The position numbers and the translations under genes were made by a program. The notes beneath the pieces were generated by a model. It saw only the letters and a list, made by a program, of their open reading frames with translations, made no database searches and was not told the DNA's origin. A stretch of 64,000 nucleotides of DNA from Flavobacterium pallidum (GTDB taxonomy: Bacteria; Bacteroidota; Bacteroidia; Flavobacteriales; Flavobacteriaceae), in assembly GCF_003097535.1 (NCBI RefSeq), contig NZ_CP029187.1, positions 3,162,001-3,226,000 on the forward strand, written 5' to 3'. Position 1 is the first letter of the stretch. Every line of letters starts with the position of its first letter. This document shows, one piece after another, positions 25,573-42,074 of this stretch.

Positions 25573-26628
25573 ATGAACTGGAATGCAAAACCCATACTGC
25601 ACAAAGGCACAGCGCGCATTGCAGTGTCTTTTGAAAGACGAAATGAAGCCTTACTTACCATCGTTACCGCTACTCCGGACGCGTTGTGGAGCCAGTCGAA
25701 AAAAACCTGGCACCTGCCGGATACGGCTGAAAACCGCAATCGTTTCGGGCTGACTGAAGCGACAGGAAAATCGGTTCTTGCGTTGATAGCACCTCAAAGT
25801 CAACGGGTGCTTGAGCGTTTTGTAGAGCAGCTCAGGCTTATGGGCTACAGCCATCATACTATTCGTAAATACCGTGCAGATTTTGGAGATTTCCTGTATT
25901 GGATTAAAGCTACACCGCCACAGGAATGTGATGCAGAAAAGGTACGTTCCTATTTCGTGCATTGCCTGATTGAAAAACGGCAAAGCGAAGCGTTGATTCA
26001 CAGTCGAATGAATGCACTGAAATTTTATTATGTAAGCATGCTGCACCGTGAGCGGTTTTTTATTGACATTCCAAGGCCCAAGAAACCCCACAAGCTGCCA
26101 AAAGTGATCCCGGTGGAAATCATCAAAAAACTTTTTGAGCAGACCATAAATTTAAAGCACAATACAATCTTAAAACTCTGTTATGGCATGGGACTGCGTG
26201 TCTCAGAAGTGGCCGGCCTCGCAATCCCGGACATTGATAGCCGCAACATGCAGGTTTTGGTCGAACATGGAAAGGGCAAAAAAGAGCGTTATGTGAACCT
26301 GCCGGAAAGTATTTTAGGCCAGTTGCGTGATTATTATAAAGAATATCGCCCCAAGCATTATTTATTCGAAGGAGCAGATGGCGGGCAGTATTCGATCCGG
26401 ACAATACAGCACATTTTTAGGGAATCAATGAAAAAGACCGGTTACAACCGAAAGGTTGGAATCCACAGCCTGCGGCACAGCTTTGCGACCCATTTGCTGG
26501 AACAGGGAACGGATATACGGTTTATACAAGAACTTTTAGGGCATAATAATATCAAGACCACGTTATTATATACCGAAGTGAGCGACAACAGCATCCGTAA
26601 AATCATAAGTCCGTTAGACAAGCTTTAA
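25573..26628 (+). CDS. tyrosine recombinase, candidate cassette integrase
   Basis: A 351-residue recombinase. Residues about 1-75 form an extra N-terminal domain with WSQSKKTWHLPDTAENR. A SAM-like core-binding domain follows (MGYSHHTIRKYRADFGDFLYWI). The catalytic domain shows Arg209 (GMGLRVSE), Lys236 (GKGKKER), His298/Arg301 (HSLRH), His324 (LGHNN) and the nucleophile Tyr333 (LLYTEVS). From NLPES to HSLRH there are 59 residues, about 40 fewer than I recall for IntI1, so the IntI-specific insertion seems absent. It is transcribed toward the array, and its stop is 117 bases from the first cassette boundary, so it is the obvious candidate integrase; a host Xer-like role is the alternative. An ATG is chosen over an upstream TTG at 25534. 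Confidence 0.85.
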   Translation: MNWNAKPILHKGTARIAVSFERRNEALLTIVTATPDALWSQSKKTWHLPDTAENRNRFGLTEATGKSVLALIAPQSQRVLERFVEQLRLMGYSHHTIRKYRADFGDFLYWIKATPPQECDAEKVRSYFVHCLIEKRQSEALIHSRMNALKFYYVSMLHRERFFIDIPRPKKPHKLPKVIPVEIIKKLFEQTINLKHNTILKLCYGMGLRVSEVAGLAIPDIDSRNMQVLVEHGKGKKERYVNLPESILGQLRDYYKEYRPKHYLFEGADGGQYSIRTIQHIFRESMKKTGYNRKVGIHSLRHSFATHLLEQGTDIRFIQELLGHNNIKTTLLYTEVSDNSIRKIISPLDKL

Positions 26629-26748
26629 TAAAAACGTTATATTTGGACACCGGATACACTTGAGATATCATTTTATGCAATGCGTATTTGTATATATCAG
26701 CAACAAAAATGGGATTTTTTAGATTTTGGTTGCGTGTATTTGGTAGTT
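26629..26748 (+). other. attI-like region
   Basis: This AT-rich stretch follows the recombinase and ends at GTTAGCTGTGATTTC (from 26746), which matches the inverted end of cassette 1 (GAAACCACAGCTAAC). The crossover is therefore placed at the G/TT of 26746-26748. No attC palindrome is present upstream of the point, as expected for an attI. Confidence 0.7.
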
Positions 26749-26795
26749 AGCTGTGATTTCAATGCGAACGAACGTAATTTGTAAGAATAATTTAA

Positions 26796-26803
26796 TATAT
26801 TTG
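26796..26803 (+). promoter_or_regulatory. cassette 1 -7 promoter element TATATTTG
   Basis: An exact TAnnTTTG match 25 nt before the cassette 1 start codon. A TTTG lies only 14 nt upstream of it, so the -33 assignment is uncertain. Confidence 0.4.
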
Positions 26804-26828
26804 TAGGAGTATTTAAAATCTAAACTAC

Positions 26829-27119
26829 ATGACTACCTACATTCCTTATAATTTCAATACAAAAGAAAATGTGACAAGACTTAATTTCGATGCAAAGATT
26901 ACCAATGTTATTGCAGATATAAAAAAAGAGTATGAGCTGACGGACGAAAATATAAAACTTGCCAGACACACATCTAATTACAAAAATCCGGTTGAAAAAC
27001 AAATTTTTGAAGGCGACTTAATTGTGTACGCAATAAAGCAAAATGGTAAATTACTTTCATCCTTGAATTGTTTTATAAGTAATTCCAACGATTACATGGA
27101 GATAAACAGTTATCAATAA
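26829..27119 (+). CDS. cassette 1 hypothetical protein
   Basis: A 96-residue soluble protein with no family I recognise. It is mixed alpha/beta in appearance, with FDAKITNVIADIKKEYELTDENIKLARH as the likeliest helix pair. It is the first cassette gene and has its own TAnnTTTG element, which matters because attI carries no attC-type promoter. Its stop lies 12 bases before attC 1. Confidence 0.65.
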   Translation: MTTYIPYNFNTKENVTRLNFDAKITNVIADIKKEYELTDENIKLARHTSNYKNPVEKQIFEGDLIVYAIKQNGKLLSSLNCFISNSNDYMEINSYQ

Positions 27120-27131
27120 GAAACCACAGCT

Positions 27132-27257
27132 AACAGCGGTTTCACGCAATTGCTGCTTCTCTTGTAAAATGAACCAACTTTTTCCATAACTTCGTTTTGT
27201 CCAGCCGAGAGTACTCAGTTCCAGAAGCCGCAACTGACGTGAAGCCGCCGGACGTTA
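27132..27257 (+). repeat. attC site 1
   Basis: Closes cassette 1 (arm CCACAGC) and opens cassette 2 with GTTATATGCC. Outer palindrome TAACAGCGGTTTCACG / CGTGAAGCCGCCGGACGTTA; the loop has one extra T. Confidence 0.92.
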
Positions 27258-27411
27258 TATGCCATAGGCCCAGTTTGCGGTGATGAAAACCTTTAAATTT
27301 TTCTACTTGCAATTCTTTTTTATAATTAATGTAATAATTTATAAATAGTCAATCTCTTTCCTTATAATATTTTTTTCCGACCTTTATAGAGTTAACTTTT
27401 AAACTTTGGTT

Positions 27412-27576
27412 ATGAGAATTTTTATGCCAATTATAATGACACTGATTTTCGTGTGTTATGTACTTTACTTAGCTTTCATTAGAAAAGAATTTAAAAGTAA
27501 GTTGAAAACTGAGGTTTTGCCTGGAGCATTTTTCATTTTGGTTTGGGGTTTGTGCTATTTTGCATTTTTTATATAA
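27412..27576 (+). CDS. cassette 2 small membrane protein
   Basis: A 54-residue protein, MRIFMPIIMTLIFVCYVLYL at the start and FFILVWGLCYFAFFI at the end, giving two membrane segments with a basic loop (RKEFKSKLKTE) between them. It is the only sensible frame in the cassette and points the same way as the other cargo. The role is unknown; small two-span proteins of this kind are sometimes toxins or holin-like, but nothing here proves that. Confidence 0.55.
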   Translation: MRIFMPIIMTLIFVCYVLYLAFIRKEFKSKLKTEVLPGAFFILVWGLCYFAFFI

Positions 27577-27608
27577 TTTGGTATTAAATAAAATCCATCT
27601 ACGGCATA

Positions 27609-27735
27609 TAACAGCGGTTTCACGCAATTGCTGCTTCTCTTGTAAAATGAACGACCTTTTTCCATAACTTCGTTCCGTCCAGCCGAAAATACTCAGCTTC
27701 GAAAGCCGCAACTGACGTGAAGCCGCCGGACGTTA
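27609..27735 (+). repeat. attC site 2
   Basis: Closes cassette 2 (GGCATATAAC) and opens cassette 3 with GTTATGCGCC. Confidence 0.92.
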
Positions 27736-27837
27736 TGCGCCAGTTTTCGGCGCACGAAAACGTTACGTGTAATATAAACTTAAATGTAGTTTCATCTTAA
27801 AATCTTTTAAATCCATTATTCCTAGAATAGCACGTTA

Positions 27838-28116
27838 ATGAAGACTAAAACATTTAATACTCTTACTTCAATTTCAATGGTGTTAACTTCTACTGTACTT
27901 GTAATTGAAGTCGTGAAGTTTATAAGTAACGGTTTTTATTTAGACCCTGGGATTTTCATATTAATGCTATTAGCTTTAATGCCAATTGCGTCTAAATTTT
28001 ACCATCAAAAAAAATCAATTAAACTAAATAACCTCCAATATAAGGCACTCTTTTCAGTAAATTCAATCCTAATATTATTGATGATTTGGAAGATTGTTTT
28101 AACCTTTACAAAATAA
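27838..28116 (+). CDS. cassette 3 small membrane protein
   Basis: A 92-residue protein with three hydrophobic stretches (ISMVLTSTVLVIEVVKFI, PGIFILMLLALMPIA, ALFSVNSILILLMIWKIVL) separated by basic residues (YHQKKSIK). It is probably an inner-membrane protein. I do not recognise the family. Confidence 0.65.
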   Translation: MKTKTFNTLTSISMVLTSTVLVIEVVKFISNGFYLDPGIFILMLLALMPIASKFYHQKKSIKLNNLQYKALFSVNSILILLMIWKIVLTFTK

Positions 28117-28140
28117 ACTAAAGTCAATAAAACCGGCACA

Positions 28141-28267
28141 TAACAGCGGTTTCACGCAATTGCTGTTCACGTTGTAAAATGAACCACCTTTTTCCATAAC
28201 TTCGTTCTGTCCAGCCGAGAGTACTCAGCTTCGAAAGCCGCAACTGACGTGAAGCCGCCGGACGTTA
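28141..28267 (+). repeat. attC site 3
   Basis: Closes cassette 3 and opens cassette 4 with GTTATATGTG. The arm of cassette 3 has one mismatch (GCGCC versus GTGCC). Confidence 0.92.
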
Positions 28268-28605
28268 TATGTGGGTCGCTCCGCTCGCCTAATGAACGTT
28301 TCTCGTATGTTGAAAAGTTCGGCTTGTGTTTGAGTAAATTTGACTTTTCTCCTATTTTTTCACGGCTCAACTTTGTGGTTACGTTGTGTTAGTGTCGCCG
28401 GAAAATTCGTCATTTTTGTTTACGTTTCTTGTCGCCGAGAGTTCTCTGCGAGACTTAATCGGAACTTAATTGTTTGTCAAAATGTTTGTGTTGAATTGCG
28501 ATGAGAAAACTGTGCGTGTTTAACTTCAATTTTTCAAAAAACATAACGGAGCAGAATTACTTTGTGGCTACTTTGCGTGATTTTGCTGATGTGTCACGAC
28601 CCATA
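28268..28605 (+). other. cassette 4, ORF-less (repeat family subtype B)
   Basis: 338 bases without a credible gene in any frame. Nearly identical to cassette 15 and related to 17 and 20. It contains CGGCTTGTGTTTGAGTAAAT early, then TTTGTGGTTACGTTGTGT and, near the end, the similar TTTGTGGCTACTTTGCGTG. Confidence 0.75.
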
Positions 28606-28732
28606 TAACACCGGTTTCACGCAATTGCTACTTGCCTTGTAAAATGAATCACCTTTTTCCATAACTTCGTTCTGTCCAGCCGAGAGTACTCAGTTCCAAA
28701 AGCCGCAACTGACGTGAAGCCGCCGGACGTTA
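28606..28732 (+). repeat. attC site 4
   Basis: Closes cassette 4 and opens cassette 5 with GTTACAGGCC. The left half reads TAACACCGG instead of TAACAGCGG. Confidence 0.9.
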
Positions 28733-29089
28733 CAGGCCATAGCTCCGCGCCTCTGAAAGAACGATTTCCCTAAATTGAACAGTTCGGCTTGTGTTTGAGT
28801 AAATTTGACTTCTCTTCTATTTTTCACGGAGCAGCTTTGTGGTTACGTTGTGTTAGTGTCGCCTGGAAAATTGTCGTTTTATTTTCGCATCTCTTCGCCT
28901 AGAGTTCTCCGCTGGACGCAATCAGGCGCAATAGCTGTCGAAAGTCTTTATCAATCTTCTTTGCTCGAAATGTATCCAAAATCTGTTGCGTTGAATTGCG
29001 ATAACTTAAATTTTAAGAAACTTAAAGACTAAAGCAGAATTTCTTTGTGGTTACTTTGTGTGATTTTGCAACTGTGTCGCGACGGCCTG
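28733..29089 (+). other. cassette 5, ORF-less (repeat family subtype A)
   Basis: 357 bases sharing most of their sequence with cassettes 14, 33, 34 and 41. Short open frames differ between copies because of indels, so coding is unlikely. Arms GTTACAGGCC / GGCCTGTAAC. Confidence 0.75.
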
Positions 29090-29216
29090 TAACAGCGGTT
29101 TCACGCAATTGCTACTTACCTTGTAAAATGAACGACCTTTTTCCATAACTTCGTTCTGTCCAGCCGAGAATACTCAGTTCCAAAAGCCGCAACTGACGTG
29201 AAGCCGCCGGACGTTA
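29090..29216 (+). repeat. attC site 5
   Basis: Closes cassette 5 and opens cassette 6 with GTTATATGCC. Confidence 0.92.
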
Positions 29217-29254
29217 TATGCCATTGACGGCGCGCGTAGAAAATCTTGCGTAAA

Positions 29255-29285
29255 TTTGGAAATTTCAAAAAAAGTAATAACTTTG
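29255..29285 (+). promoter_or_regulatory. promoter of the mazEF cassette
   Basis: TTTG (29255-29258), 19-nt spacer, TAACTTTG (29278-29285): a full consensus match 20 nt before the antitoxin ATG. It lies inside the cassette, so the pair is self-sufficient. Confidence 0.7.
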
Positions 29286-29305
29286 TGGTTACAAAAAATA
29301 ATGCT

Positions 29306-29551
29306 ATGGATATTTCTGTAATACCAATTGGAAACTCAAAAGGAATTCGTTTATCGAAAACTTTACTTGAAAAATATAATATCACAGATAAAGTTGAACT
29401 TATTCTGGAGAAAGGTTACATCATTTTAAAACCTAAATCTGAACCGCGAACTGGTTGGGAAAAAGCTTTTAAAAAAATGCACGAAAATGGCGATGACAAC
29501 TTGCTAATCCATGACGCTTTCGAAGACGAAAATCTTGAAGAATGGATTTAA
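29306..29551 (+). CDS. mazE: cassette 6 MazE-like antitoxin (AbrB/SpoVT fold)
   Basis: An 81-residue antitoxin. The N-terminal swapped-hairpin motif is MDISVIPIGNSKGIRLSKTLLEKYNITDKVELILEKGYIILKP, and the acidic tail (HDAFEDENLEEWI) would wrap the toxin. The ATG at 29306 is used because a consensus promoter sits just upstream; the frame opens 60 bases earlier. It overlaps the toxin gene by 10 bases. It should neutralise MazF and repress its own promoter. Confidence 0.9.
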   Translation: MDISVIPIGNSKGIRLSKTLLEKYNITDKVELILEKGYIILKPKSEPRTGWEKAFKKMHENGDDNLLIHDAFEDENLEEWI

Positions 29552-29865
29552 GGCAATATCAAATCGTTTTAGTAAATCTTGATCCAACAATCGGAAGTGA
29601 AATGAAGAAAACACGTCCGTGCGTTATCATTTCTCCGAATGAAATGAATAAATATCTCAATACAATTGTTATCGCTCCTATGACAAGCAGTTCAAAACCT
29701 TATCCAACCAGGGTCGAGGTGAATCATGATAAGAAAACTGGCTGGATTGTGCTTGATCAAATTCGAACTGTTGACAGGCGAAGAATTATCAAAGTGCTGG
29801 GCAATTTATCTGAAAAAGAATTCGAAAAAGTGAAGGAAGTTTTGCGAGAGACATTTGTAGATTAA
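29542..29865 (+). CDS. mazF: cassette 6 MazF-like toxin (PemK family)
   Basis: A 107-residue endoribonuclease toxin of normal length. It shows YQIVLVNLDPTIGSEMKKTRPCVIISPNEMN, IVIAPMTSS, GWIVLDQIRTVDRRRI and KVLGNLSEKEFEKVKEVL, the full PemK/MazF set. It should cleave single-stranded mRNA when the antitoxin decays. Its start lies inside the antitoxin gene, indicating translational coupling. Toxin-antitoxin cassettes are typical stabilisers of long chromosomal cassette arrays. Confidence 0.92.
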   Translation: MDLRQYQIVLVNLDPTIGSEMKKTRPCVIISPNEMNKYLNTIVIAPMTSSSKPYPTRVEVNHDKKTGWIVLDQIRTVDRRRIIKVLGNLSEKEFEKVKEVLRETFVD

Positions 29866-29879
29866 ATTTCAACGGCATA

Positions 29880-30006
29880 TAACAGCGGTTTCACGCAATT
29901 GCTACTTTCCTTGTAAAATGAACCACCTTTTTCCATAAATTCGTTCTGTCCAGCCGAGAGTACTCAGCTTCGAAAGCCGCAACTGACGTGAAGCCGCCGG
30001 ACGTTA
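29880..30006 (+). repeat. attC site 6
   Basis: Closes cassette 6 and opens cassette 7 with GTTAGGCGAT. Confidence 0.92.
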
Positions 30007-30044
30007 GGCGATATTTATAAAAACGACATCAAACATAGAGAATA

Positions 30045-31163
30045 ATGGCACTTCAAGATGAAATCGAATTAAAAGCAAAACAAATACATACTGACGGATA
30101 TTCATTGTCTATCGGAGAATTAATGTCTTTATATAGAGATAGAGAAATTGATATACATCCTGAATTTCAGAGATTTTTTCGATGGTCACCAAATCAAAAA
30201 ACTAAATTAATTGAATCAATTCTGTTAGGCATTCCTATTCCTCCAATATTTGTTTCTCAAAGAGAAGATGGAGTTTGGGATGTTATTGATGGCCTACAGC
30301 GTTTATCTACCATTTTAGAGTTTTCTGGTTTGCTTCGAGATAGCGAAGGTAATATCAAAGCAGCAAGCAAGCTTAATGGCACAGATTACTTGCCATCTTT
30401 GGAGGGAAAATATTGGCAAAAAGACGATGATTTGCCTAATTCATTTGACCAAACTCAAAGACTCATCATTAAGAGATCAAAATTGGGTGTTCAAATTATT
30501 AAAAAGGAAAGTGACAAAGACACAAAATTTGAACTTTTTCAAAGATTAAATACTGGCGGCACAGCATTAACAGAACAAGAAATCAGAAACTGCATTTTGG
30601 TAATGATCAATAAAGATTTTTACACTTGGCTATCTGAATTAAGCCAAAGTCCAAATTTCCAATCTGTATTGCCTATTTCTGACCGAGCAGTTGAAGAACA
30701 ATATGATGTTGAATTAGCTTTAAGATATTTTGTTTACAAGTCGATTACACTTGAAGAAGTAAATTCCACTAAAGATATTGGTAAACTTTTAACGGACAAA
30801 ATGGTGGAATTCGCATCGGATGAAAATTTTGATTACGAAGGAGAAAAAGCGAATTTTGATAAGGTATTTGAATTATTGAATTCGGCACTCGGAGAAGATG
30901 CTTTTAGAAAATGGGAACCACAAAAAAATAAGTTCACTGGTGCATTTTCAATTTCATTATTTGAAGTAATCGTCACTGGTTTTGGTAAAAATAGCGAACT
31001 ATATAATAATACAGCTGAAAGCCAAGCTGAATTGGCGGAAAAAATAAAATCCATAAGTTTGAATCAGGTATTTATCGACAATTCCGGTAATGGTAAAAGA
31101 GCGTCAACCAGATTGCCTCACTTTTTGCCTTTAGGAACTCAGATTTTTGGGAATGAAAATTAG
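30045..31163 (+). CDS. cassette 7 DUF262 domain protein
   Basis: A 372-residue protein with the DUF262 (GmrS-like, ParB/sulfiredoxin-fold) signature: IHPEFQRFFRWSPNQKTKLIESILLGIPIPPIF, then DVIDGLQRLSTI. The middle is FELFQRLNTGGTALTEQEIRNCI. DUF262 proteins act as nucleotide-dependent nucleases or sensors in defence systems. There is no DUF1524 HNH domain at the C-terminus. The next gene, a HEPN protein, overlaps by 11 bases, so the two should be one functional pair. Defence is an inference from the partner families. Confidence 0.88.
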   Translation: MALQDEIELKAKQIHTDGYSLSIGELMSLYRDREIDIHPEFQRFFRWSPNQKTKLIESILLGIPIPPIFVSQREDGVWDVIDGLQRLSTILEFSGLLRDSEGNIKAASKLNGTDYLPSLEGKYWQKDDDLPNSFDQTQRLIIKRSKLGVQIIKKESDKDTKFELFQRLNTGGTALTEQEIRNCILVMINKDFYTWLSELSQSPNFQSVLPISDRAVEEQYDVELALRYFVYKSITLEEVNSTKDIGKLLTDKMVEFASDENFDYEGEKANFDKVFELLNSALGEDAFRKWEPQKNKFTGAFSISLFEVIVTGFGKNSELYNNTAESQAELAEKIKSISLNQVFIDNSGNGKRASTRLPHFLPLGTQIFGNEN

Positions 31164-31803
31164 AACTGTAGAGGAATTACAAAATCGTTTAGATGATGAT
31201 TTTGCTTGGAGACGAAAAGAACTTACAAATATTTACACAAATGTCAGTTCTTCGAAACCAAAGCAAATGAATACCAACATTCGAATTGGTGTTGTGATGC
31301 TTTATGCGCATTGGGAGGGATTTATCAAAAATGCTGCAGAAACATATCTAATCTTTGTTTCTAGTAAGAAACTAACATATAATCAATTATCAAATAATTT
31401 CATTGCACTCTCATTAAAAGCTAAATTATCTGTTTTTCAAGAAACGAATAAAAATACACTTCATACTCAGTTGGTAGATTTTCTACTTGGAAATTTGGAT
31501 ATCCGAGCTCAAGTTCCTACGGAAAATGTGATCAAGACACAATCAAATCTCAATTCAAATATTTTAAAAGAGATACTTTCAATTATAGGTGTTAGTTACG
31601 ATCAATTCGAATTGAAAGAAAAATTTATTGATACTCAATTATTAAATATTCGTAATTCTGTAGCCCATGGACAAAACCCAGATATGGATGAAATTGAGTT
31701 TTCTGAACTTTACACTGAGATTACATCGTTGATGAATTCAATAAAAACTGAGATTGCGAATAATGCAACACTTTTAAATTACAAAAAAGTAAACATCGCC
31801 TAA
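31153..31803 (+). CDS. cassette 7 MAE_28990-type HEPN protein
   Basis: A 216-residue protein matching the MAE_28990/MAE_18760 HEPN family: VVMLYAHWEGFIKNAAETYLIFVSSKKLTY, and the catalytic Rx4H motif in LLNIRNSVAHGQNPDMD. HEPN domains of this kind are usually RNases. The ATG at 31153 overlaps the DUF262 gene. The stop codon TAA is the first three bases of attC 7. In published genomes this family is commonly paired with DUF262 proteins; here the pair fills one cassette. Confidence 0.87.
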   Translation: MKIRTVEELQNRLDDDFAWRRKELTNIYTNVSSSKPKQMNTNIRIGVVMLYAHWEGFIKNAAETYLIFVSSKKLTYNQLSNNFIALSLKAKLSVFQETNKNTLHTQLVDFLLGNLDIRAQVPTENVIKTQSNLNSNILKEILSIIGVSYDQFELKEKFIDTQLLNIRNSVAHGQNPDMDEIEFSELYTEITSLMNSIKTEIANNATLLNYKKVNIA

Positions 31804-31927
31804 CAGCGGTTTCACGCAATTGCTACTTTTCTTGTAAAATGAACTTCTTTTTTCCATAACTTCGTTTTGTCCAGCCGAGAGTACTCAGTTCCAAAAGCCG
31901 CAACTGACGTGAAGCCGCCGGACGTTA
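31801..31927 (+). repeat. attC site 7
   Basis: Closes cassette 7 (supplying its stop codon) and opens cassette 8 with GTTAGCTGCT. Confidence 0.92.
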
Positions 31928-31964
31928 GCTGCTAGCTTTTGAGAATCCCGCAAATATTGAATTT

Positions 31965-32426
31965 ATGAAGTTAATTATAACGTTTTTTTGTTTCTTATTT
32001 CCTTTATTATTGTTTAGTCAAACACTGTCAATTGATGCTCACAAAAAGTTTGCTGACAGTATTGTGAATCATATCGAAGAAGAAAGAATAGATGGTGTTA
32101 TTAGATATTCTCATGGAAGAAAAGACGGGAAACAAATCAGAGAGCTTATGACAAATACTCTCATTCTAAAAAACCTAAATAAAACGATAAGAATATGCTA
32201 TCGTGAGCGACATCCTGAAACCGATGAAGAATTAAATATCTATTTCTTAGATGATAAACTTATTTATGCTGAAAAGGTAACATGGCGAAAAAAGAAATTT
32301 TTTAAGCAGATTTTCTATTATGAAAATGAATCTCTGATACATTCTGAAAATTCGAAAGAAGCAGGTTTAGATAGTATAGATGTTTTAATTGAAGCTCGAA
32401 GTCTATTTAAGCAAGCCAGCAGCTAA
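31965..32426 (+). CDS. cassette 8 secreted hypothetical protein
   Basis: A 153-residue protein with a signal peptide (MKLIITFFCFLFPLLLFSQ, cleavage after S). The mature part alternates charged strands (NKTIRICYRERHPETDEELNIYFLDDKLIYAEKVTWRKKKF in pieces). No family was recognised. Its TAA stop is the first triplet of attC 8. Confidence 0.65.
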   Translation: MKLIITFFCFLFPLLLFSQTLSIDAHKKFADSIVNHIEEERIDGVIRYSHGRKDGKQIRELMTNTLILKNLNKTIRICYRERHPETDEELNIYFLDDKLIYAEKVTWRKKKFFKQIFYYENESLIHSENSKEAGLDSIDVLIEARSLFKQASS

Positions 32427-32550
32427 CAGCGGTTTCACGCAATTGCTGCTTCCTTTGTGAAATGAGACATCTTTTTCCATAACTTCGTTCTGTCCAGCCG
32501 AGAGTACTCAGCTTCGAAAGCCGCAACTGACGTGAAGCCGCCGGACGTTA
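32424..32550 (+). repeat. attC site 8
   Basis: Closes cassette 8 (stop codon overlap) and opens cassette 9 with GTTACCTGCA. Confidence 0.92.
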
Positions 32551-32586
32551 CCTGCAAGCGCTACAAAAATCGCGTAAAATCAAATT

Positions 32587-33129
32587 ATGGAGATAGGAAA
32601 ACAATTTAATAGTTTGGGGTTTGAAGATTATTTTTTTTATATCGATAATTATAAAAAATATTCTGACTTTAATACTTTGGGATTATATCGTTCACTTTCA
32701 GAAAATGAAAAACTTAATCTCGAACAGAAAATTTCCATTAGAGATTATGCAAACAAAATATTTGAAAAGACATTTAATTTTTTGCAAGTAAAAGATCCCT
32801 GGACGTACATAAAGGTACAAACTCTAGGATTAGAACTAACACATGGTGACAAGGAAGAAATGTGGCGTAAAATATTTATAAATCAGGAAAAAATATTGCG
32901 CGAAAAAAGAATAAAACACAAAAATTTCGGAGAATATTCAAAGCATAACTGTGGTTACGAAACATGTCCTATGAATGGCATAATGATTAAGCAAGGCTCA
33001 TTTATGGCCGAGTACGAAATGTGTATTGGAAATATCAATAGATATGTACAAAAACAAAAGTCTGAAACAAGAAAATCAGAAAGAAAAAGCGAAAGCCAAA
33101 TTATTAATAACGAATTGGATTTAGAATAA
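32587..33129 (+). CDS. cassette 9 hypothetical protein, duplicated as cassette 43
   Basis: A 180-residue soluble protein. The C-terminal part has HNCGYETCPMNGIMIKQGS and YEMCIGN; the Cys/His cluster could bind metal. A lysine/serine/arginine-rich tail follows (KSETRKSERKSESQ). It is nearly identical to the product at 59192-59734 (three or four substitutions), and the flanking bases match too, so the whole cassette was copied. The function is unknown. Confidence 0.7.
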   Translation: MEIGKQFNSLGFEDYFFYIDNYKKYSDFNTLGLYRSLSENEKLNLEQKISIRDYANKIFEKTFNFLQVKDPWTYIKVQTLGLELTHGDKEEMWRKIFINQEKILREKRIKHKNFGEYSKHNCGYETCPMNGIMIKQGSFMAEYEMCIGNINRYVQKQKSETRKSERKSESQIINNELDLE

Positions 33130-33141
33130 TGCGCCAGCAGG

Positions 33142-33269
33142 TAACAGCGGTTTCACGCAATTGCTACTTACCGTGTACAATGAACTTCTTTTTTCCATAA
33201 CTTCGTTCTGTCCACGCCGAGAGTACTCGGTTCCAAATGCCGCAACTGACGTGAAGCCGCCGGACGTTA
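33142..33269 (+). repeat. attC site 9
   Basis: Closes cassette 9 and opens cassette 10 with GTTATGTGTG. Loop variant GTGTACAATGAAC, with CCACGCCGAG on the right. Confidence 0.9.
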
Positions 33270-33345
33270 TGTGTGATTTTTGAAAAACCTTGTCCGAAAT
33301 TTGGAAAGTTACCAAAATTTGGTAATTTTACAGAAATGAAAAGTC

Positions 33346-33597
33346 ATGGGAAAGAATACTTCAATATCACTCGGAAATCACTTCGAACATTTCGTTGAAA
33401 ACACAATTGCGCATGGCAGATTCAAAAATGCAAGCGAAGTTGTTCGCGCCGGACTGCGCCTTTTGGAAGATGAAGAAAATCGAGTTGTAATGCTTCGAAA
33501 TTCAATTGAGGAAGGAATTAAAAGTGGAAGAGCAGAAAACTTTGATTCTCAAAAATTTCTTGCTCAATTGAAAGCCAGCAAAAAAGCGAATGGCTAA
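33346..33597 (+). CDS. parD: cassette 10 ParD-like antitoxin
   Basis: An 83-residue ribbon-helix-helix antitoxin: SISLGNHFEHFVENTIAHGRFKNASEVVRAGLRLLEDEE is the ParD/CopG pattern, followed by a helical toxin-binding tail. It overlaps the toxin gene by eight bases. It should bind DNA as a dimer at its own promoter and neutralise the toxin. Confidence 0.9.
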   Translation: MGKNTSISLGNHFEHFVENTIAHGRFKNASEVVRAGLRLLEDEENRVVMLRNSIEEGIKSGRAENFDSQKFLAQLKASKKANG

Positions 33598-33886
33598 ATT
33601 TCATCTTTTATATAGAGCTGTTGATGATCTTGCGGATATTTGGGATTATACTTATGATGAATGGTCAGAAAGACAAGCTGACAAATATTATCAATTGCTT
33701 CTCGATAGTTGCCAAGAAATAGCTGAGAATCCAAATATCGGAAAATCGTACAATCAAATTGTGAATAATCTGTTTGGCTATAAATCTGGCGAACATTTAA
33801 TTTTCTATCTTGTAGTTGACGTACAGGAAATTGAAGTGGTTAGAATATTACACGGTAGTATGGATTTAAAGAAAAAGTTTCAATAA
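33590..33886 (+). CDS. parE: cassette 10 ParE/RelE-family toxin
   Basis: A 98-residue toxin: FHLLYRAVDDLADIWDYTYDEWSERQADKYYQLLLDSCQEIAENP, GKSYNQIVNNLFGYKSGEHLIFYLVV and EIEVVRILHGSMDLKKKF match ParE. ParE toxins usually poison DNA gyrase. The eight-base overlap with the antitoxin gene indicates coupled translation. It is the second toxin-antitoxin cassette in the array. Confidence 0.9.
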   Translation: MAKFHLLYRAVDDLADIWDYTYDEWSERQADKYYQLLLDSCQEIAENPNIGKSYNQIVNNLFGYKSGEHLIFYLVVDVQEIEVVRILHGSMDLKKKFQ

Positions 33887-33899
33887 TTAAAACCACACA

Positions 33900-34026
33900 T
33901 AACAGCGGTTTCACGCAATTGCTACTCACTTTGTAAAATGAACGACCTTTTTCCATAACTTCGTCTTGTCCAGCCGAGAATACTCAGTTCCAAAAGCCGC
34001 AACTGACGTGAAGCCGCCGGACGTTA
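33900..34026 (+). repeat. attC site 10
   Basis: Closes cassette 10 and opens cassette 11 with GTTAGCAGCA. Confidence 0.92.
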
Positions 34027-34054
34027 GCAGCAAATCTTAAACAACCGGACGTAA

Positions 34055-34633
34055 ATGAACCCAATATTTGAACACAAACCTGAAACTGGAATTGGATATT
34101 GTAAAGAAGATTTTTTAAATAATTTTTTACATATATGTGAAAAGCATAAAAACCAAAAGAGAGCCAAGTCATTTGCTTTGATTCTATACGATTTTCATAA
34201 TAAAGCATTAAGAAATCTTATCAAGGATTTTGGAGCGTTTATAAAACTTGACAGGCTTTCCGGAAAAGATATTTCTGTATTTTATCTCGATTCTGAAAAT
34301 CAGAGTTCAATTGCTACCTTTAATTATATATTCTCTAATGCTTTTGAAGTTGATGAAAATACAAAAAAGCCTTTCGTCATTTTCTTCAACGTAAAAGACG
34401 ATGATGTCAAAGATGTAAATATTATTGAACTTGAACAATCAAATTTACTTTTAGCTTTTCAAGAACTACATAGCACTTTTGAGAACTATCTTATGTGTTT
34501 AAACGATAAAAATGCTGAATCAATGAAACCGAAATTCTTAAAAATTGTTTCTAAAGTCGGTAGTATTTCACTCGACAAATTAATGGGAATTTTATTGGAA
34601 GTAGGTGCAAAAAAATTAGGGATAGACATATAG
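34055..34633 (+). CDS. cassette 11 hypothetical protein
   Basis: A 192-residue soluble protein. SFALILYDFHNKALRNLIKDFGAF and KKPFVIFFNVKDDDVKD look like alternating strands and helices of an alpha/beta fold, followed by a helical C-terminus (LLLAFQELHSTFENYLMCLND). No named family was recognised. Confidence 0.65.
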   Translation: MNPIFEHKPETGIGYCKEDFLNNFLHICEKHKNQKRAKSFALILYDFHNKALRNLIKDFGAFIKLDRLSGKDISVFYLDSENQSSIATFNYIFSNAFEVDENTKKPFVIFFNVKDDDVKDVNIIELEQSNLLLAFQELHSTFENYLMCLNDKNAESMKPKFLKIVSKVGSISLDKLMGILLEVGAKKLGIDI

Positions 34634-34642
34634 ATCTGCTGC

Positions 34643-34769
34643 TAACAGCGGTTTCACGCAATTGCTACTTCTCTTGTAAAATGAACCACCTTTTTCCATA
34701 ACTTCGTTTTGTCCAGCCGAGAGTACTCAGTTCCAAATCCCGCAACTGACGTGAAGCCGCCGGACGTTA
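34643..34769 (+). repeat. attC site 11
   Basis: Closes cassette 11 and opens cassette 12 with GTTAGCTGCA. Confidence 0.92.
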
Positions 34770-34796
34770 GCTGCAATCATAAAAACTACACCTAAT

Positions 34797-35645
34797 ATGA
34801 CCGATAACCAATTTAATCATAAAGACCGTAACATTTTCACTAAAAACGCTGTAAAAATTGCTTTAATTATAAGTGTTTTTAGCTTAGCAATTTTATTTGC
34901 AACGGCTATTTTATTTACGTACAACTTTGGAGGTTTGACATTTAAAGTCGACGACAAGATTTTTGACTCTTTTGGTAGTTTCGTCGGTGGTATACTTGGA
35001 CCTTTATTGTCTTTAGTCGCGACTTTACTTTTTTACAGAGCAATGATAATGCAAAAAGAAGAACTTACTTTACAGAGAAACAGTATCGACATGCAACGTA
35101 AAGAAGCTGAACGCCAAACGCAAGAAATGGCAGAAACAAGAAAACAATTTGAAACCACGAGGTTAACTGACATTCTTTATAAGCAAGTTGAAAGGTTTTA
35201 TTCAAACATTGACAATCTTGAATATGAACATAACGCTTTAATATTGACAGGAGAAAAAGCCCACAATTATATTGTTATAGGGTTTTCCCAAATAAGTTTA
35301 CAAGCTCGCAATAAAACGGTGACGAAAGAATCAGCTGAAAGGATATTAGAATATTTTGGCACTTTTGGACTAAGTTTATGGATATATTCTATTAATGCTT
35401 TTACTATATGCCAAACCTTCTATTCTGTAGTAGAAAATTCAAAACTATCTCCAGACGAGAAGAATGAAATAATGTCTTTATTTTATCTTTCGATCGGAAC
35501 CGTCAAAACTACTCTTTTTAATAGGGTTGAAGAAACTGTGAATGGGTTAGAAGCAGCAGAAATTGACTTAAGTAAGACCCTAGCACATTCAACTAAAGAT
35601 ATTTGTCATGATATTATTGAACTGCGAGCCCGTCGGTACGAATAA
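34797..35645 (+). CDS. cassette 12 putative phage abortive-infection protein (putAbiC-like)
   Basis: A 282-residue protein with two N-terminal membrane segments (residues about 20-45 and 62-84), the second beginning SFGSFVGGILGPLLSLVATLLFYRA. A coiled coil follows (MQKEELTLQRNSIDMQRKEAERQ), then a helical cytoplasmic domain (DILYKQVERFYSNIDNLEY). This architecture is the putAbiC pattern, a family linked to abortive infection. The name is by pattern only; phage defence is an inference. Confidence 0.72.
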   Translation: MTDNQFNHKDRNIFTKNAVKIALIISVFSLAILFATAILFTYNFGGLTFKVDDKIFDSFGSFVGGILGPLLSLVATLLFYRAMIMQKEELTLQRNSIDMQRKEAERQTQEMAETRKQFETTRLTDILYKQVERFYSNIDNLEYEHNALILTGEKAHNYIVIGFSQISLQARNKTVTKESAERILEYFGTFGLSLWIYSINAFTICQTFYSVVENSKLSPDEKNEIMSLFYLSIGTVKTTLFNRVEETVNGLEAAEIDLSKTLAHSTKDICHDIIELRARRYE

Positions 35646-35658
35646 TCATGACTGCAGC

Positions 35659-35785
35659 TAACAGCGGTTTCACGCAATTGCTACTTACTTTGTAAAATGA
35701 ACGACCTTTTTCCATAACTTCGTTTTGTCCAGCCGAGAGTACTCAGCTCCGAAAGCCGCAACTGACGTGAAGCCGCCGGACGTTA
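35659..35785 (+). repeat. attC site 12
   Basis: Closes cassette 12 and opens cassette 13 with GTTATGGGCA. Confidence 0.92.
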
Positions 35786-35803
35786 TGGGCAATTTCAACC
35801 AAA

Positions 35804-36187
35804 ATGAACGCATCAACGCTAAATATAGTTCTGAAAGACGAATCTAAAATTCAGTTATTGAAAACTGAAATTAATGCTGAAATATCAGCATATGAAAAGC
35901 TCATGCAAAAAACTGGCTCGTCAATAAATTTATATTTTAACGAAGACGAATCAACCTTTCTAAATACTCAAGGCCTTTCAAACTTGATTAATCAAACTTT
36001 AAATGGCTCTTTAAATAATGTAGAATTAGCTTACATATGCGACTGTTTAACTTTAGCCGAAAACTCAGAATTCGAAAATGATTTAGCAAAAGAAATAGTT
36101 TTCGAAATTGCAGATCCAGAAATAAACGGAGGTTATAAATCTATTGAAGAATTAAAAATACTAGCCAAATCGCTTCAAATAAAATAA
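35804..36187 (+). CDS. cassette 13 hypothetical protein, duplicated as cassette 24
   Basis: A 127-residue mainly helical acidic protein (KTEINAEISAYEKLMQKTGSS, LNNVELAYICDCLTLAENSEFENDLAKEIVFEIADPEINGGY). It differs from the copy at 46146 by only a few residues. The pattern of a small helical protein acting on partners is compatible with an immunity or anti-toxin role, but there is no direct evidence. Confidence 0.65.
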   Translation: MNASTLNIVLKDESKIQLLKTEINAEISAYEKLMQKTGSSINLYFNEDESTFLNTQGLSNLINQTLNGSLNNVELAYICDCLTLAENSEFENDLAKEIVFEIADPEINGGYKSIEELKILAKSLQIK

Positions 36188-36200
36188 AAGAAACTGCCCA

Positions 36201-36253
36201 TAACAGCGGTTTCACGCAATTGCTGCTTTCTTTGTAAAATGAACGACCTTTTT
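36201..36253 (+). repeat. attC site 13, left part (interrupted by insertion)
   Basis: The left half of attC 13 ends in the target sequence ACCTTTTT (36246-36253). The rest of the site resumes at 40547 after the inserted element. Confidence 0.95.
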
Positions 36254-36280
36254 GGCAATGATATACATGTGTAACCAATA

Positions 36281-36499
36281 CTAAGATTTGAAAAGAAACG
36301 GCATCCCACTTCTGATTTCCTTATCAAAATCATACATTTGGTCTTCTTCTTCAAACGGAATAGAATAAATCGTTTCGTATTCCGATTCTGTGGTTGTAAA
36401 GATAGGTTCTTCACCTCCTTGTATATGCATAATAGTTAAATGGACACCTAAATGAAACGCCTCGAATTCGTGTGGAACTGTTAATTGATAGTTATGCAT
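36281..36499 (-). CDS. IS passenger, hypothetical 72-residue protein
   Basis: A small acidic protein (MHNYQLTVPHEFEAFHLGVH, then EEPIFTTTESEYETIYSIPFEEEDQMY). The frame lies wholly inside the element, downstream of another small minus-strand gene with a 12-base gap, so both could be translated from one transcript. No family was recognised. Confidence 0.5.
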   Translation of the reverse strand: MHNYQLTVPHEFEAFHLGVHLTIMHIQGGEEPIFTTTESEYETIYSIPFEEEDQMYDFDKEIRSGMPFLFKS

Positions 36500-36511
36500 G
36501 ATTATTGATAA

Positions 36512-36715
36512 TTAAAGCCAATCGGCAGGGACTTCATTTAGAAAAGCCTTTTTCTTATCCTCCTCACCGTCTTTAAGTATGAAATTAAAAATAGTGCTGT
36601 TTTCAGTCACTTTTGGATTCACATACTCAATCCCATGTTTAATAGCAAGATTCTTTAAGTTTTCAATATAATGTTCTTTCCCGTCAGGAATATTTACCGT
36701 TGCTGTAAGTGGCAT
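36512..36715 (-). CDS. IS passenger, hypothetical 67-residue protein
   Basis: A small alpha/beta protein (MPLTATVNIPDGKEHYIENL, KHGIEYVNPKVTENSTIF, EEDKKKAFLNEVPADW). It resembles antitoxin-like DUF proteins in size and charge, but I cannot name the family. It lies between the small downstream gene and the terminator hairpin near 36754. Confidence 0.5.
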   Translation of the reverse strand: MPLTATVNIPDGKEHYIENLKNLAIKHGIEYVNPKVTENSTIFNFILKDGEEDKKKAFLNEVPADWL

Positions 36716-36753
36716 ATTAGATTTTGTTTAAGTACATATCAAATGTAATTAAA

Positions 36754-36777
36754 AACCCCGACTTTCATCGGGGTTTG
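36754..36777. terminator. hairpin terminator inside the element
   Basis: A 9-bp stem AAACCCCGA / TCGGGGTTT with loop CTTTCA, flanked by A-rich and T-rich bases, so it could act in either direction. Confidence 0.65.
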
Positions 36778-36818
36778 CTTTTTCTATAAGTTTTCGGTAT
36801 TTTTGTAAAAAAAGCAAT

Positions 36819-36876
36819 CCTGAAAACTCACTTACGCCTAATGGGAGACCGCTAATGCAACGGCTGAATTTTCAGG
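36819..36876. ncRNA. possible structured RNA element in the insertion
   Basis: CCTGAAAA at 36819 pairs with TTTTCAGG ending at 36876, enclosing about 40 bases with a smaller CCG / CGG stem. It lies in a 230-base non-coding gap between two terminator hairpins. An expressed small RNA or a leader is possible; this is speculative. Confidence 0.25.
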
Positions 36877-36918
36877 TTCACGACACATATTTTGATGTCG
36901 TTATTGCGGGGATATTAT

Positions 36919-36942
36919 AAAAGGGGCATTTACGCCCCTTTT
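36919..36942 (-). terminator. terminator of the P63C gene
   Basis: A 9-bp stem AAAAGGGGC / GCCCCTTTT with a 6-base loop, six bases past the P63C stop codon; on the minus strand it leads into a T-rich run. Confidence 0.75.
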
Positions 36943-36947
36943 TTATA

Positions 36948-38057
36948 TTAGTGAGGTGGAACAAATAAACTTAGTTGTATCGGAATTCTCCCATATTTTT
37001 CAGCCATTTTTCGCCTTAACTCCTCCATGGTAGTACATGCCGACGCCATACCAACTAACTGCCAAATATGCTCTAATAATTTCTTTAATCCATATTGCTC
37101 AGTTAGCCATCTATGGTAACTTATTCCTGATTTAGTAGGTGTTGGAACGTTTTTGTTCAGCCACTCATAAACATCTTTGTCAAGGTAGCTGTAAACTAAT
37201 TCATTAACGAGTTTTCCCCAATATTTAGGTCGTTGTTGTAAACTTCCTTTCCAATTTGTTAAACGTCCAAATTCTACCCAAAGCTGGTCAGGAAATGTTT
37301 TTTCCCATTTGCGAAGTTCCTCTGCTAAAAACAAGTTCAATTTAAACTGTAACGCATCTATAGGTCGGTCATATTGATATCCTGTAGCCTCATCAACTAA
37401 CGCTATGATACCTGTTTTTGCACACGCTCTTAAAAATGAATTTGCTCTTTCTGCGATTTCTTTTTGGCGGTCAGTTAACTTAACCATACCGTCTTTTTTA
37501 TCAGATTCCTGCAGGGCAGTAGAATACGCAATACAAATATCCATAAATCGCTCTACAGGCACGCCAATAGCGGTTTTAGCAAATGATGCTGCTCCTGTAT
37601 CGAAGTTCAAAAGCGCGGGAATTTGCCCATTTTCTGCAGGTATCAAATCTTCGGGTAAATATGATCGTATTGACTTAACCTTGATGTATTCAGCGAGCTG
37701 ACCTCCTTCGACACCTGTCAGAGCTACAACGACACCTTTTAGACTAAAAATGCGTTCCCCACTTTCTAATACGTAACATGGTATCTCTTCGTTACCCAAA
37801 GTTAACGCCCCAAAGTGAGACGCTTTTTGTGTTTCTAATTCGTTTTTATCATTGATAATTTGAATCGTTGTATCAAAATCTGTTGAAGAGAGACTAATTC
37901 CTTTTTCAGAAGCAATTTGAAGTAGATTAGCACGCCACTTTATAGGAATAACCCCTGTCTTAGCCCAATAAGCTACAGTACTTTGACCTTTCCCTATTAA
38001 TTCAGCAACATTGACCTGTCCGCCAAATTTCGCAATTATTTTTTGAGCTGTATTCAT
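36948..38057 (-). CDS. IS passenger, P63C-domain protein with N-terminal HTH
   Basis: A 369-residue protein. The N-terminus (VNVAELIGKGQSTVAYWAKTGVIPIKWRANLL) is a helix-turn-helix. The central and C-terminal parts match the phage P63C domain: LTDRQKEIAERANSFLRACAKTGIIALVDEATGYQYDR, then LFLAEELRKWEKTFPDQLW and KYWGKLVNELVYSYL. P63C occurs in phage and element-borne proteins of unclear function. The ATG at 38057 is preferred because the HTH begins there; the frame opens 102 bases earlier in AT-rich DNA. It is divergent from the transposase. Confidence 0.85.
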   Translation of the reverse strand: MNTAQKIIAKFGGQVNVAELIGKGQSTVAYWAKTGVIPIKWRANLLQIASEKGISLSSTDFDTTIQIINDKNELETQKASHFGALTLGNEEIPCYVLESGERIFSLKGVVVALTGVEGGQLAEYIKVKSIRSYLPEDLIPAENGQIPALLNFDTGAASFAKTAIGVPVERFMDICIAYSTALQESDKKDGMVKLTDRQKEIAERANSFLRACAKTGIIALVDEATGYQYDRPIDALQFKLNLFLAEELRKWEKTFPDQLWVEFGRLTNWKGSLQQRPKYWGKLVNELVYSYLDKDVYEWLNKNVPTPTKSGISYHRWLTEQYGLKKLLEHIWQLVGMASACTTMEELRRKMAEKYGRIPIQLSLFVPPH

Positions 38058-38188
38058 TACGTATACATTTAATTTGCTACAAATATCAAAAAAAATATTT
38101 AAGTGTATCAAAAAAACTGATATTTTTTTTAAAAAATTTGTTATTGTAATTTTATCCATGTATATTTACATCATCAAATAAAAGCAAT

Positions 38189-39118
38189 ATGAAAACCGCT
38201 AAAGATTTAAGAGATTTCGACAGTTTATTCCAATTACTTGACTACTTCACTACAGAAGAAAAATGTGAACAGCATTTAGCGGTTATCCGTTGGAATGGTG
38301 AGCCTACTTGTGCTTACTGCGAATCAACAAAGGTTTCTAAATTAGGTGGTAAAACTAACCGTTACAAATGTTACGGATGCAAAAAACAGTTTGGCGTGAA
38401 AGTGGGAACTATCTTCCACGATTCAAAAGTATCTTTGCGTAAATGGTTTGTTGCTATCTACTTAATCACTACAAACAAAAAAGGAATTTCCTCACACCAA
38501 TTAGCTCGTCATATCCAAGTTACTCAGAAATCAGCTTGGTTTATTTTGCAACGTGTTAGAGAGGTTTACAACGATAAGCCGGAAGTATTCACATCTACAG
38601 TTGAAATTGACGAAACTTTCATCGGAGGTGCTAACGCTAACCGTCACGAAAGCAAAAAAGTAAAGGGCGGTCACGGTGGCGCAAAGCATACACCTGTTTT
38701 GGGTATTATTGAAAGAGGTGGGAAAGTTTACGCCTTGCCTGTAGCAAACAGAAAAGCAAAAACCATCATCCCGATTATGGTTGACCAAGTGGCTGAGGGC
38801 GCAACCGTTTACACAGACGAGTTTAAGTCTTATGCTTCTTTGAATAACAGATATGAGCATGATTTCGTTTGCCACAGGGCAAAAGAATACGTTAGCGGAA
38901 ACGTTCACACTAACGGAATTGAAAACTTTTGGTCTCACCTGTCCCGTACCATCTTTGGGACTTATCACCACGTTACACCAAAGTATTTAGGACGATATGT
39001 TAACGAACAGGCTTTCCGCCATAACAACAGGGATTTGTCAGAGGGAAGCAAATTTGATGTAGCTTTGGCGAACGGAGTTAATGTAAGAATATCACATAAA
39101 CAACTTACGAATGGCTAA
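38189..39118 (+). CDS. IS1595-family transposase (ISXO2-like)
   Basis: A 309-residue transposase. A zinc ribbon lies at the N-terminus (CAYCESTKVSKLGGKTNRYKC then CKKQF). The catalytic core shows the first Asp in TVEIDETFIGGA, the second in TVYTDEFKSY, and the HTNGIENFWSHLSR motif with the Asn/Glu position typical of ISXO2-like enzymes. It looks intact, and with perfect terminal repeats and a clean target duplication the element is probably recent and may be active. Confidence 0.94.
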   Translation: MKTAKDLRDFDSLFQLLDYFTTEEKCEQHLAVIRWNGEPTCAYCESTKVSKLGGKTNRYKCYGCKKQFGVKVGTIFHDSKVSLRKWFVAIYLITTNKKGISSHQLARHIQVTQKSAWFILQRVREVYNDKPEVFTSTVEIDETFIGGANANRHESKKVKGGHGGAKHTPVLGIIERGGKVYALPVANRKAKTIIPIMVDQVAEGATVYTDEFKSYASLNNRYEHDFVCHRAKEYVSGNVHTNGIENFWSHLSRTIFGTYHHVTPKYLGRYVNEQAFRHNNRDLSEGSKFDVALANGVNVRISHKQLTNG

Positions 39119-39248
39119 AAAGAAAGAGGTAAAAATACCACGTCCTAAAGAAGATGTACGGATTGAAGCGGATAAACCCAAATTCAATGCCGTACTTTCT
39201 GCTATTGTAAAAAAGAAGCCGAACAATGGTGATGAAAGCACTAAGTAA
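39111..39248 (+). CDS. IS passenger, 45-residue basic peptide
   Basis: A short frame (MAKKKEVKIPRPKEDVRIEA then KPKFNAVLSAIVKKKP) that overlaps the transposase end by eight bases and the next gene by 23 bases. The tight overlaps suggest translational coupling and a real product. The function is unknown. Confidence 0.5.
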   Translation: MAKKKEVKIPRPKEDVRIEADKPKFNAVLSAIVKKKPNNGDESTK

Positions 39249-39450
39249 ACTGTACACGGCTGTACTGGATAACAAGGTTGTGGCGTTCGGCACGAACCTG
39301 AAAGACTTCGTTACTGAAATGCAGTCGTTAGAGCCTCAAAAAACACGGAACTATCAATACTACTTCCGAGCGTTCCAAAAGGAAAAGATAATTGAATTAA
39401 AGGCAGTAGATAAGGTTTATTTTCTGCAAGAAGTATATAACAGAGAGTAA
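39226..39450 (+). CDS. IS accessory small protein
   Basis: A 74-residue protein (KALSKLYTAVLDNKVVAFGT, QSLEPQKTRNYQYYFRAFQK). It sits in the string of overlapping frames behind the transposase, and similar small genes accompany ISXO2-type transposases in related genomes as far as I recall. No domain was recognised. Confidence 0.5.
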   Translation: MVMKALSKLYTAVLDNKVVAFGTNLKDFVTEMQSLEPQKTRNYQYYFRAFQKEKIIELKAVDKVYFLQEVYNRE

Positions 39451-39471
39451 TAATTTTGCTATTTTTGCTAA

Positions 39472-40284: not shown

Positions 40285-40546
40285 TTATATTAAACGGATC
40301 GACGTAGCACACGCCCATAAGGGTTAAAATTAAGATGCAGAAATAACAATCCGTTTCCATTCGCAAGCTGTTAACAGATTTGGAGCAAAATGCCGCTACA
40401 AATTATTAAACAGTATGCCTGACCGCTTCGCTGATTACGTGTGAAGCAAAACCACTTAACGGGTTATCAGTTACCCTCTTTTTTCAACCGTAAAATGGAG
40501 GCGTGGAAAATTCGTAGATTTGTGGTTACACATGTATATCATTGCC

Positions 40547-40628
40547 ACCTTTTTCCATAACTTCGTTTTGTCCAGCCGAGAATACTCAGTTCCAAATGCC
40601 GCAACTGACGTGAAGCCACCGGACGTTA
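40547..40628 (+). repeat. attC site 13, right part
   Basis: The right part starts with the duplicated ACCTTTTT and runs to GACGTTA. Opens cassette 14 with GTTACAGGCC. One change in the arm (GCCACCGG). Confidence 0.93.
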
Positions 40629-40988
40629 CAGGCCATTGCTCCGCGCCTCTGAAAGAACGATTTCCCTAAATTGAACAGTTCGGTTTGTGTTTGAGTAAAT
40701 TTGACTTCTCCCCTATTTTTCACGGAGCAGTTTTGTGGTTACGTTGTGTTAGTGTCGCCTGGAAAATTGTCGTTTTATTTTCGCATCTCCTCGCCGAGAA
40801 TTCTCTGCGGGACGCAATCAAGTGCAATAGCTGTGGAAAATCTTTGTCGATCTTCTTTTGCGTTGAAAATGTATCAAAAATCTGTTGCGTTGAATTGCGC
40901 GAACTTAACTTTGAGAAATTTTAAAGCCTAATTTAGAATTTCTTTCTGGTTACTTTGTGTGATTTTGCAACTGTGTCGCAACGGCCTG
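40629..40988 (+). other. cassette 14, ORF-less (repeat family subtype A)
   Basis: 360 bases closely matching cassettes 5, 34 and 41. Its attC-borne promoter was separated by the IS, so it now lies behind the element's right end. Confidence 0.75.
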
Positions 40989-41581: not shown

Positions 41582-41605
41582 TGTGACATTTCAACCTCCA
41601 ACGAT

Positions 41606-42064: not shown

Positions 42065-42074
42065 AAACGTCACA

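Follow-up and report, generated by a model that had tools for sequence, protein, structure and literature searches.

An integron-like cassette array in Flavobacterium pallidum beside a tyrosine recombinase without the IntI insertion

We analysed a stretch of 64,000 nucleotides from the Flavobacterium pallidum genome (contig NZ_CP029187.1, positions 3,162,001 to 3,226,000; hereafter the window, to which coordinates refer unless given as genome positions), in which a tyrosine recombinase gene is followed on the same strand by a long array of cassettes with attC-like sites. We put at roughly 0.78 the probability that the array is part of an integron-like cassette system driven by an integrase that lacks the I2-bearing insertion of the canonical integron integrase IntI. 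As far as sequence can show, the system works like an integron, and it is best read as a new integron variant whose enzyme comes from a sister or stem lineage of IntI without I2, with recombination as a prediction.

The integrase and its relation to IntI

The open reading frame (ORF) of the integrase opens with ATG and encodes 351 amino acids (364 from an alternative in-frame TTG start at 25534), and the 351-residue protein matched PF00589 with an E-value of 4.6e-38. Its features were as follows.

25573..26628, + strand: tyrosine recombinase, an integron-like integrase without the IntI insertion (ORF, PF00589, 73-row alignment, structural match)
25573..25770, + strand: extra N-terminal domain, residues 1-66, perhaps HARP-like (model pLDDT 84; weak HARP and DUF5710 similarity)
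26296..26463, + strand: segment N242-G297, longer by 42 residues in canonical IntI (length comparison)
26569..26571, + strand: codon of the catalytic tyrosine Y333 (invariant alignment column)

Residues R209, K234, H298, R301, H324 and Y333, which have catalytic roles in the family, were invariant across the 73-row alignment, so that the integrase has the tyrosine-recombinase catalytic residues expected of IntI; the catalytic tyrosine agrees with the Tyr333 singled out for mutation in an earlier note on this DNA. Counted from the N of NLPES to the residue preceding the H of HSLRH, the segment that holds the additional domain of IntI spans 56 residues in the window integrase versus 98 in 21 canonical IntI rows and 99 in VchIntI (PDB 2A3V), while the other insertion-less rows gave 51-61. 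The earlier note had counted 59 against about 101, which is the same difference of 42, and its claim of a missing insertion is borne out, as is that of an extra N-terminal domain of about 75 residues (78 residues precede the SAM-like domain). Minus-strand IntI loci and L081 were left out of this length alignment; the alignment and quick tree omit 12 loci (L023, L029, L042, L043, L047, L063, L065, L070, L075, L077, L080, L083) and 11 near-duplicates, and L099 and L102 failed the length filter.

Against the integron integrase profile TIGR02249 the protein scored 188.9 bits, below the cut-off of 265, with the match split into two stretches, of which the listed one ends at profile position 181. 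It also stayed below the NCBIfam cut-offs for XerC (190.2 against 335.15 bits), XerD (171.6 against 329.6) and XerA (NF040815; 212.7 against 220), the last being its highest NCBIfam score and falling only slightly short. Its nearest named relative is from Flavobacterium sp. BFFFF1 (76%).

In quick trees 29 IntI rows grouped together (support 99), with the insertion-less rows apart (89 with 70 rows, 83 with 132 rows). A careful tree of 74 rows, picked by hand from 166, recovered IntI as one clade (100/100) and joined it to 53 insertion-less rows (100/97), with XerA and XerC/D outside. In 28% of 200 bootstrap trees the insertion-less rows formed a single group; their union as one clade gave a p-value of 0.33 in the approximately unbiased test (p-AU), and the placement of IntI with Xer a p-value of 0.275. 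Placement of the window clade (window, P0003, P0032) inside the 16 IntI rows was rejected (p-AU 8.31e-5). Because of the 100/97 support and these topology tests, IntI and the insertion-less family appear, among the sampled rows, to share an ancestor apart from Xer, with IntI as sister or nested both compatible. The earlier note had suggested an independent recombinase lineage, which agrees with the position outside IntI and is contradicted, in the sense of an unrelated lineage, by the clade with IntI. Because the protein departs from IntI on three defining tests (the insertion, the TIGR02249 cut-off and the IntI clade), we do not file it as IntI; it may mark a state before, or beside, the gain of I2.

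The structure model of the whole integrase (pLDDT, the predicted local distance difference test, 88; pTM, the predicted template modelling score, 0.68) found the integron integrase 2A3V as its best PDB match, with XerA tied in Z (22.9 and 22.3). N-terminal residues 3-57 were modelled as strand-strand-helix-strand-strand-helix. Pfam HARP matched this domain in 5 of 25 rows (best E 0.0053, weak) and DUF5710 in 13 of 25 (best E 2e-5); the HARP domain of SMARCAL1 (PDB 4o66) was its sole profile match (E 0.13) and came first with Foldseek (E 0.23), both weak, and 4o66 was not among the VIA-align matches of the domain model. The domain perhaps has a HARP-like fold, for which these signs agree in part. 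HARP is a domain that binds DNA structures, and the likeness, if real, suggests how the integrase may read a hairpin without I2. Relatives with downstream arrays had the domain in 35 of 38 cases, those with upstream arrays in 9 of 14 and those without arrays in 25 of 40. For five integrases without it (L060, L082, L170, L180, L182) cassettes lie upstream, on the 5' side of the gene.

In the 3.55-Mb single-contig genome PF00589 found three proteins: the window integrase, a second scoring best with XerD (332.5 bits, cut-off 329.6) and a third scoring best with XerC (299.8 bits, under the cut-off of 335.15). A genome search with TIGR02249 gave no match at an E-value of 1e-30 or better. A second canonical intI acting on these sites, which the earlier note had named as a result that would overturn its reading, was thus not present among these proteins and matches.

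The cassette array and its sites

The array begins directly behind the integrase gene and continues beyond the window. Its main features are listed here.

26629..26748, + strand: attI-like region to the first GTT core (26746-26748), with TTGCGTGTATTTGG at 26730-26743 (pairing of the first cassette start with the cassette 1 end)
26747..27254, + strand: first cassette, a 96-residue ORF (26829-27119) plus its own site (12-nt complementary ends except position 8)
27132..27256, + strand: first attC-like site, AAC to GTT, 125 nt (half-site matches, folding)
27132..63661, + strand: cassette array within the window, with 48 pairs formed among its 49 left and 49 right half sites, running on to genome position 3252468
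63537..63661, + strand: last complete site in the window

A 27-nt sequence defines the site half, and it had 49 matches in the window at up to 3 mismatches, with 0 expected. Its last 24 nt, used for the genome search, gave 87 matches, all on the + strand and 86 of them in one block; a lone copy lies at genome position 3285973, 33 kb past the array. The 48 window sites are each 124-126 nt long. Across the window and the following genome stretches the whole array comprises 87 left and 86 right half sites, 85 of them complete sites, and 87 cassettes in 63.7 kb, with the longest ORF on the integrase strand in 86 of the 87.

The bases after GTT at the start of a cassette are complementary to the bases before AAC at the end of the same cassette, matching at positions 1-7 and 9-12. 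Position 8 was mismatched in 85 of 87 cassettes (A:C in 78), and position 13 matched in 3 of 87. Among 70 distinct arm pairs, with repeats removed, 589 of 630 variable pairs were complementary (z 27), versus a mean of 233.8 and a maximum of 286 in 5000 shuffles of the arm pairs; the flanks of a single integrated site paired no more than shuffles did (245 of 612). Pairing within one cassette only is what one would expect from the capture of cassettes as circles, the two ends of each forming one folded site, and the view that the sites display the covariation expected of folded sites is supported by these counts.

As single-stranded DNA the bottom strand was the more stable in all 48 window sites (-24.5 versus -19.3 kcal/mol in the integrated form, -33.6 versus -25.6 in the circle form) and also folded better in 97 of 108 sites of 24 relatives; where the top strand has the A:C mismatch, the bottom strand has a T.G pair. 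In canonical controls, with strand sense not assigned, the two strands gave -27.5 and -24.9 (L124, 10 sites) and -25.5 and -25.3 (L126, 7 sites).

Duplicated cassettes mark the same boundaries. Among 39 duplicated pairs, 12 had bodies at least 98% alike, and in 11 of these the own 3' site was more alike than the preceding site, with a tie in one; identity ended at the core, 0-2 nt past the next GTT in 11 of the 12 and 6 nt past it in the other. Recent duplicates are thus bounded at GTT, each with its own 3' site, and distances of up to about 33 kb separate identical copies.

Behind the integrase stop the first GTT core follows after 117 nt, on the same strand. The earlier note's view that the gene is transcribed toward the cassettes therefore stood, though as a feature it is not unique: the available part of PMC9668308 describes Spirochaetota IntI as generally reverse-oriented. 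Further blocks of the attI-like region were common to three close relatives or species (window, L004, G463) by sequence comparison, and a TTGCGTATATTT-like motif was seen by eye directly before the core in the window, L004, L012, L026, L027, L137, L147 and L172, with variants elsewhere; in L030 and L178 the region before the first core ends like an attC site instead.

Among ten cassette proteins scanned, three had Pfam matches: a PemK/MazF toxin (29542-29865), GmrSD_N (30045-31163) and Kinase-PolyVal (44530-45162). One site of the array is split by 4.4 kb, as follows.

36202..36223, + strand: left half of the interrupted site, with no right half after it
36224..40600, no strand: stretch separating the two half sites, holding a transposase-like ORF (38189-39118, + strand) among others
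40601..40627, + strand: right half of a site without a left half

The ORFs of the separating stretch we take to be transposase-like (38189-39118), P63C-like and DinD-like.

Recurrence among relatives

Downstream of the integrase gene a chain of at least 4 cassettes was found in 22 of 141 relatives, and upstream in 3, while all shuffled sequences stayed below 4; arm profiles are weak in three or four of these chains (among L015, L019, L137 and L157), which may be false. A survey of 60 places, picked by hand rather than at random, gave at least 3 cassettes by the 12-nt test downstream in 24 of 48 loci with at least 3 kb downstream, and upstream in 7 of 57; the corresponding counts in the search-hit set were 12 of 44 and 13 of 61. 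Strict cassettes per 10 kb of the survey numbered 3.73 downstream versus 0.87 in shuffled sequence and 1.11 upstream versus 0.85. In the window and in 31 of 36 picked relatives, a cassette start lay no more than 420 nt from the integrase stop. The integrase gene thus adjoins a cassette array as in an integron, the linkage is conserved in relatives and recurs across Bacteroidota, and arrays were found on most main branches of the insertion-less family. In 24 array-bearing loci position 8 was A:C in 93 of 108 cassettes, which had been selected by positions 1-7 and 9-12 only.

The relative G463 has an integrase 67.5% identical to that of the window, an attI-like core 204 nt past its stop and 254 cassettes in 176.6 kb, with position 8 mismatched in 251. 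Counterparts in G463 were found for 16 of the 87 window-genome cassettes, 6 of them at 90% or more, and none were neighbours in both. The G463 array (C1 3075586-3252609; L190-L203) makes up about 5% of a 3.46-Mb genome.

In loci L062-L080 (Bacteroides, Phocaeicola, Parabacteroides and kin) the integrases are insertion-less and the sites short, about 44-50 nt, with ATT as the usual core; in L066, L067 and L071 the array opens with a GTT core 65 nt behind the stop, so that the crossover would fall just before TT. Short-site chains reached 7 in L078, and up to 4 in shuffled sequence.

Proposed mechanism, rival explanations and known systems

In the mechanism that we propose, the integrase would recombine the folded bottom strand of the attC-like site in a circular cassette with the attI-like partner site about 120 bp downstream of its own gene. 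Crossover would take place at the GTT core, so that each cassette would begin with TT and end with the G of its own site; neighbouring sites would permit excision. Site asymmetry (the fixed position-8 pair, a one-sided bulge and a bulged T) together with the N-terminal domain would replace I2 in strand choice. We infer the action of the window integrase on these sites, the single-stranded substrate and this basis of strand choice.

Several observations weigh against this account. Older duplicates (bodies 81-97% alike) are mixed, several having the preceding site more alike than their own. Of the 48 survey loci with 3 kb or more downstream, half (24) show no array, and the related arrays L027 and L049 often have a paired position 8. 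The canonical IntI array L124 also has cassette arms longer than 7 nt (12 strict cassettes, 2 of them mismatched at position 8). The N-terminal domain is missing in array-bearing members (3 with downstream and 5 with upstream arrays) and hence cannot be a general substitute for I2, nor is it indispensable.

It is unlikely that the integrase acts on double-stranded sites, as Xer and phage integrases do, the paired ends being a by-product of cassette making. Such a mode would suit a protein without the insertion thought to recognise folded sites, and XerA-type structures scored nearly as high as IntI; yet the 70 distinct arm pairs are complementary only within one cassette, sharply limited to 12 nt and with a single fixed mismatch, the fixed A:C recurs in the 24 relatives (93 of 108 cassettes), and a by-product would not keep such a form.

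Somewhat less credible is an ordinary integron that lost IntI (a cluster of attC sites lacking the integrase, CALIN) and now adjoins an unrelated XerD-like gene. IntI-less arrays are a known class according to the available part of PMC9024848, 105 of the 395 phylum genomes searched have canonical IntI, and L124 shows long arms too. The genome here, however, has no IntI by the PF00589 and TIGR02249 searches, the cassette start follows closely behind the recombinase stop in 31 of 36 picked relatives and the window, the survey enrichment is downstream (3.73 against 0.87 shuffled) and slight upstream (1.11 against 0.85), and the position-8 mismatch sets these sites apart from the canonical controls.

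We regard as improbable in the highest degree of the three that the insertion-less integrases are degenerate descendants of IntI after loss of I2, even if the two are mutually closest in the set and the order inside their clade is compatible with it: the catalytic residues are invariant in 73 rows, the arrays contain recent identical duplicates, IntI is one clade (100/100), and a place of the window clade within it is rejected (p-AU 8.3e-5), on which ground we rejected plain descent from IntI. Unrelated repeats were rejected on account of the cassette-specific pairing, and action by XerC/XerD alone on account of the conserved integrase-array linkage.

The system resembles canonical IntI integrons ('superintegrons') in having an integrase beside an extended array, AAC...GTT sites whose inner arms pair, single ORFs per cassette that share a strand (86 of 87), a predicted crossover at GTT, cassette-specific paired ends and an attI-like start. 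Unlike them it has no 42-residue insertion, carries an extra N-terminal domain and places the array at the 3' end of the gene, and its outer arm past GTT is 12 nt with a fixed mismatch versus about 7-9 nt in two chainable canonical control arrays. Transcription toward the array is shared with the reverse-oriented Spirochaetota integrons (PMC9668308), whose proteins, by contrast, are IntI as defined by the additional domain in the available parts of PMC9668308 and PMC2426708. An 'integron-like subgroup' of tyrosine recombinases has been described (PMC8138268), and the accessible portion of that paper links no such protein to a cassette array. With XerC, XerD and XerA the integrase has the fold and residues in common, but these fall outside the clade of IntI and the insertion-less rows, and the genome has its own XerC- and XerD-like proteins. 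The IS91-associated alphaproteobacterial integrases L116 and L117 are also insertion-less and fall among or beside the family; unlike the window integrase they have no N-terminal domain, and L117 adjoins an IS91-family transposase by annotation. Our search of the literature on integrons, Bacteroidota and I2, which did not reach preprints or the majority of subscription journals, turned up no account of a system of this kind.

The available part of PMC4792948 speaks of a 'chicken-egg paradox' in how I2 and attC arose together, to be eased by intermediary forms. An I2-less relative of IntI tied to attC-like arrays makes this question testable, and the system may bear on how integrons arose. Tentatively, and at slightly under even odds, we propose that cassettes may be captured through folded single-stranded sites even when I2 is missing. 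A widespread lineage of Bacteroidota, nearer to IntI than any other known kin, would rely instead on asymmetry built into its sites (the 12-nt outer arm and the fixed pair, A:C in the top strand or T.G in the bottom one), helped in many of its members by an N-terminal domain that reads structure, and would represent the intermediate, or a parallel solution, that accounts of the origin of IntI lack. Such arrays would also add a large cassette reservoir, with 254 cassettes in 177 kb in one relative.

The available part of the IntegronFinder 2.0 paper (PMC9024848) names one complete integron in Bacteroidetes, in Salinibacter ruber. In our sample of the phylum, canonical IntI over the cut-off was observed in 105 of 395 genomes, more than the literature, as far as accessible, suggests.
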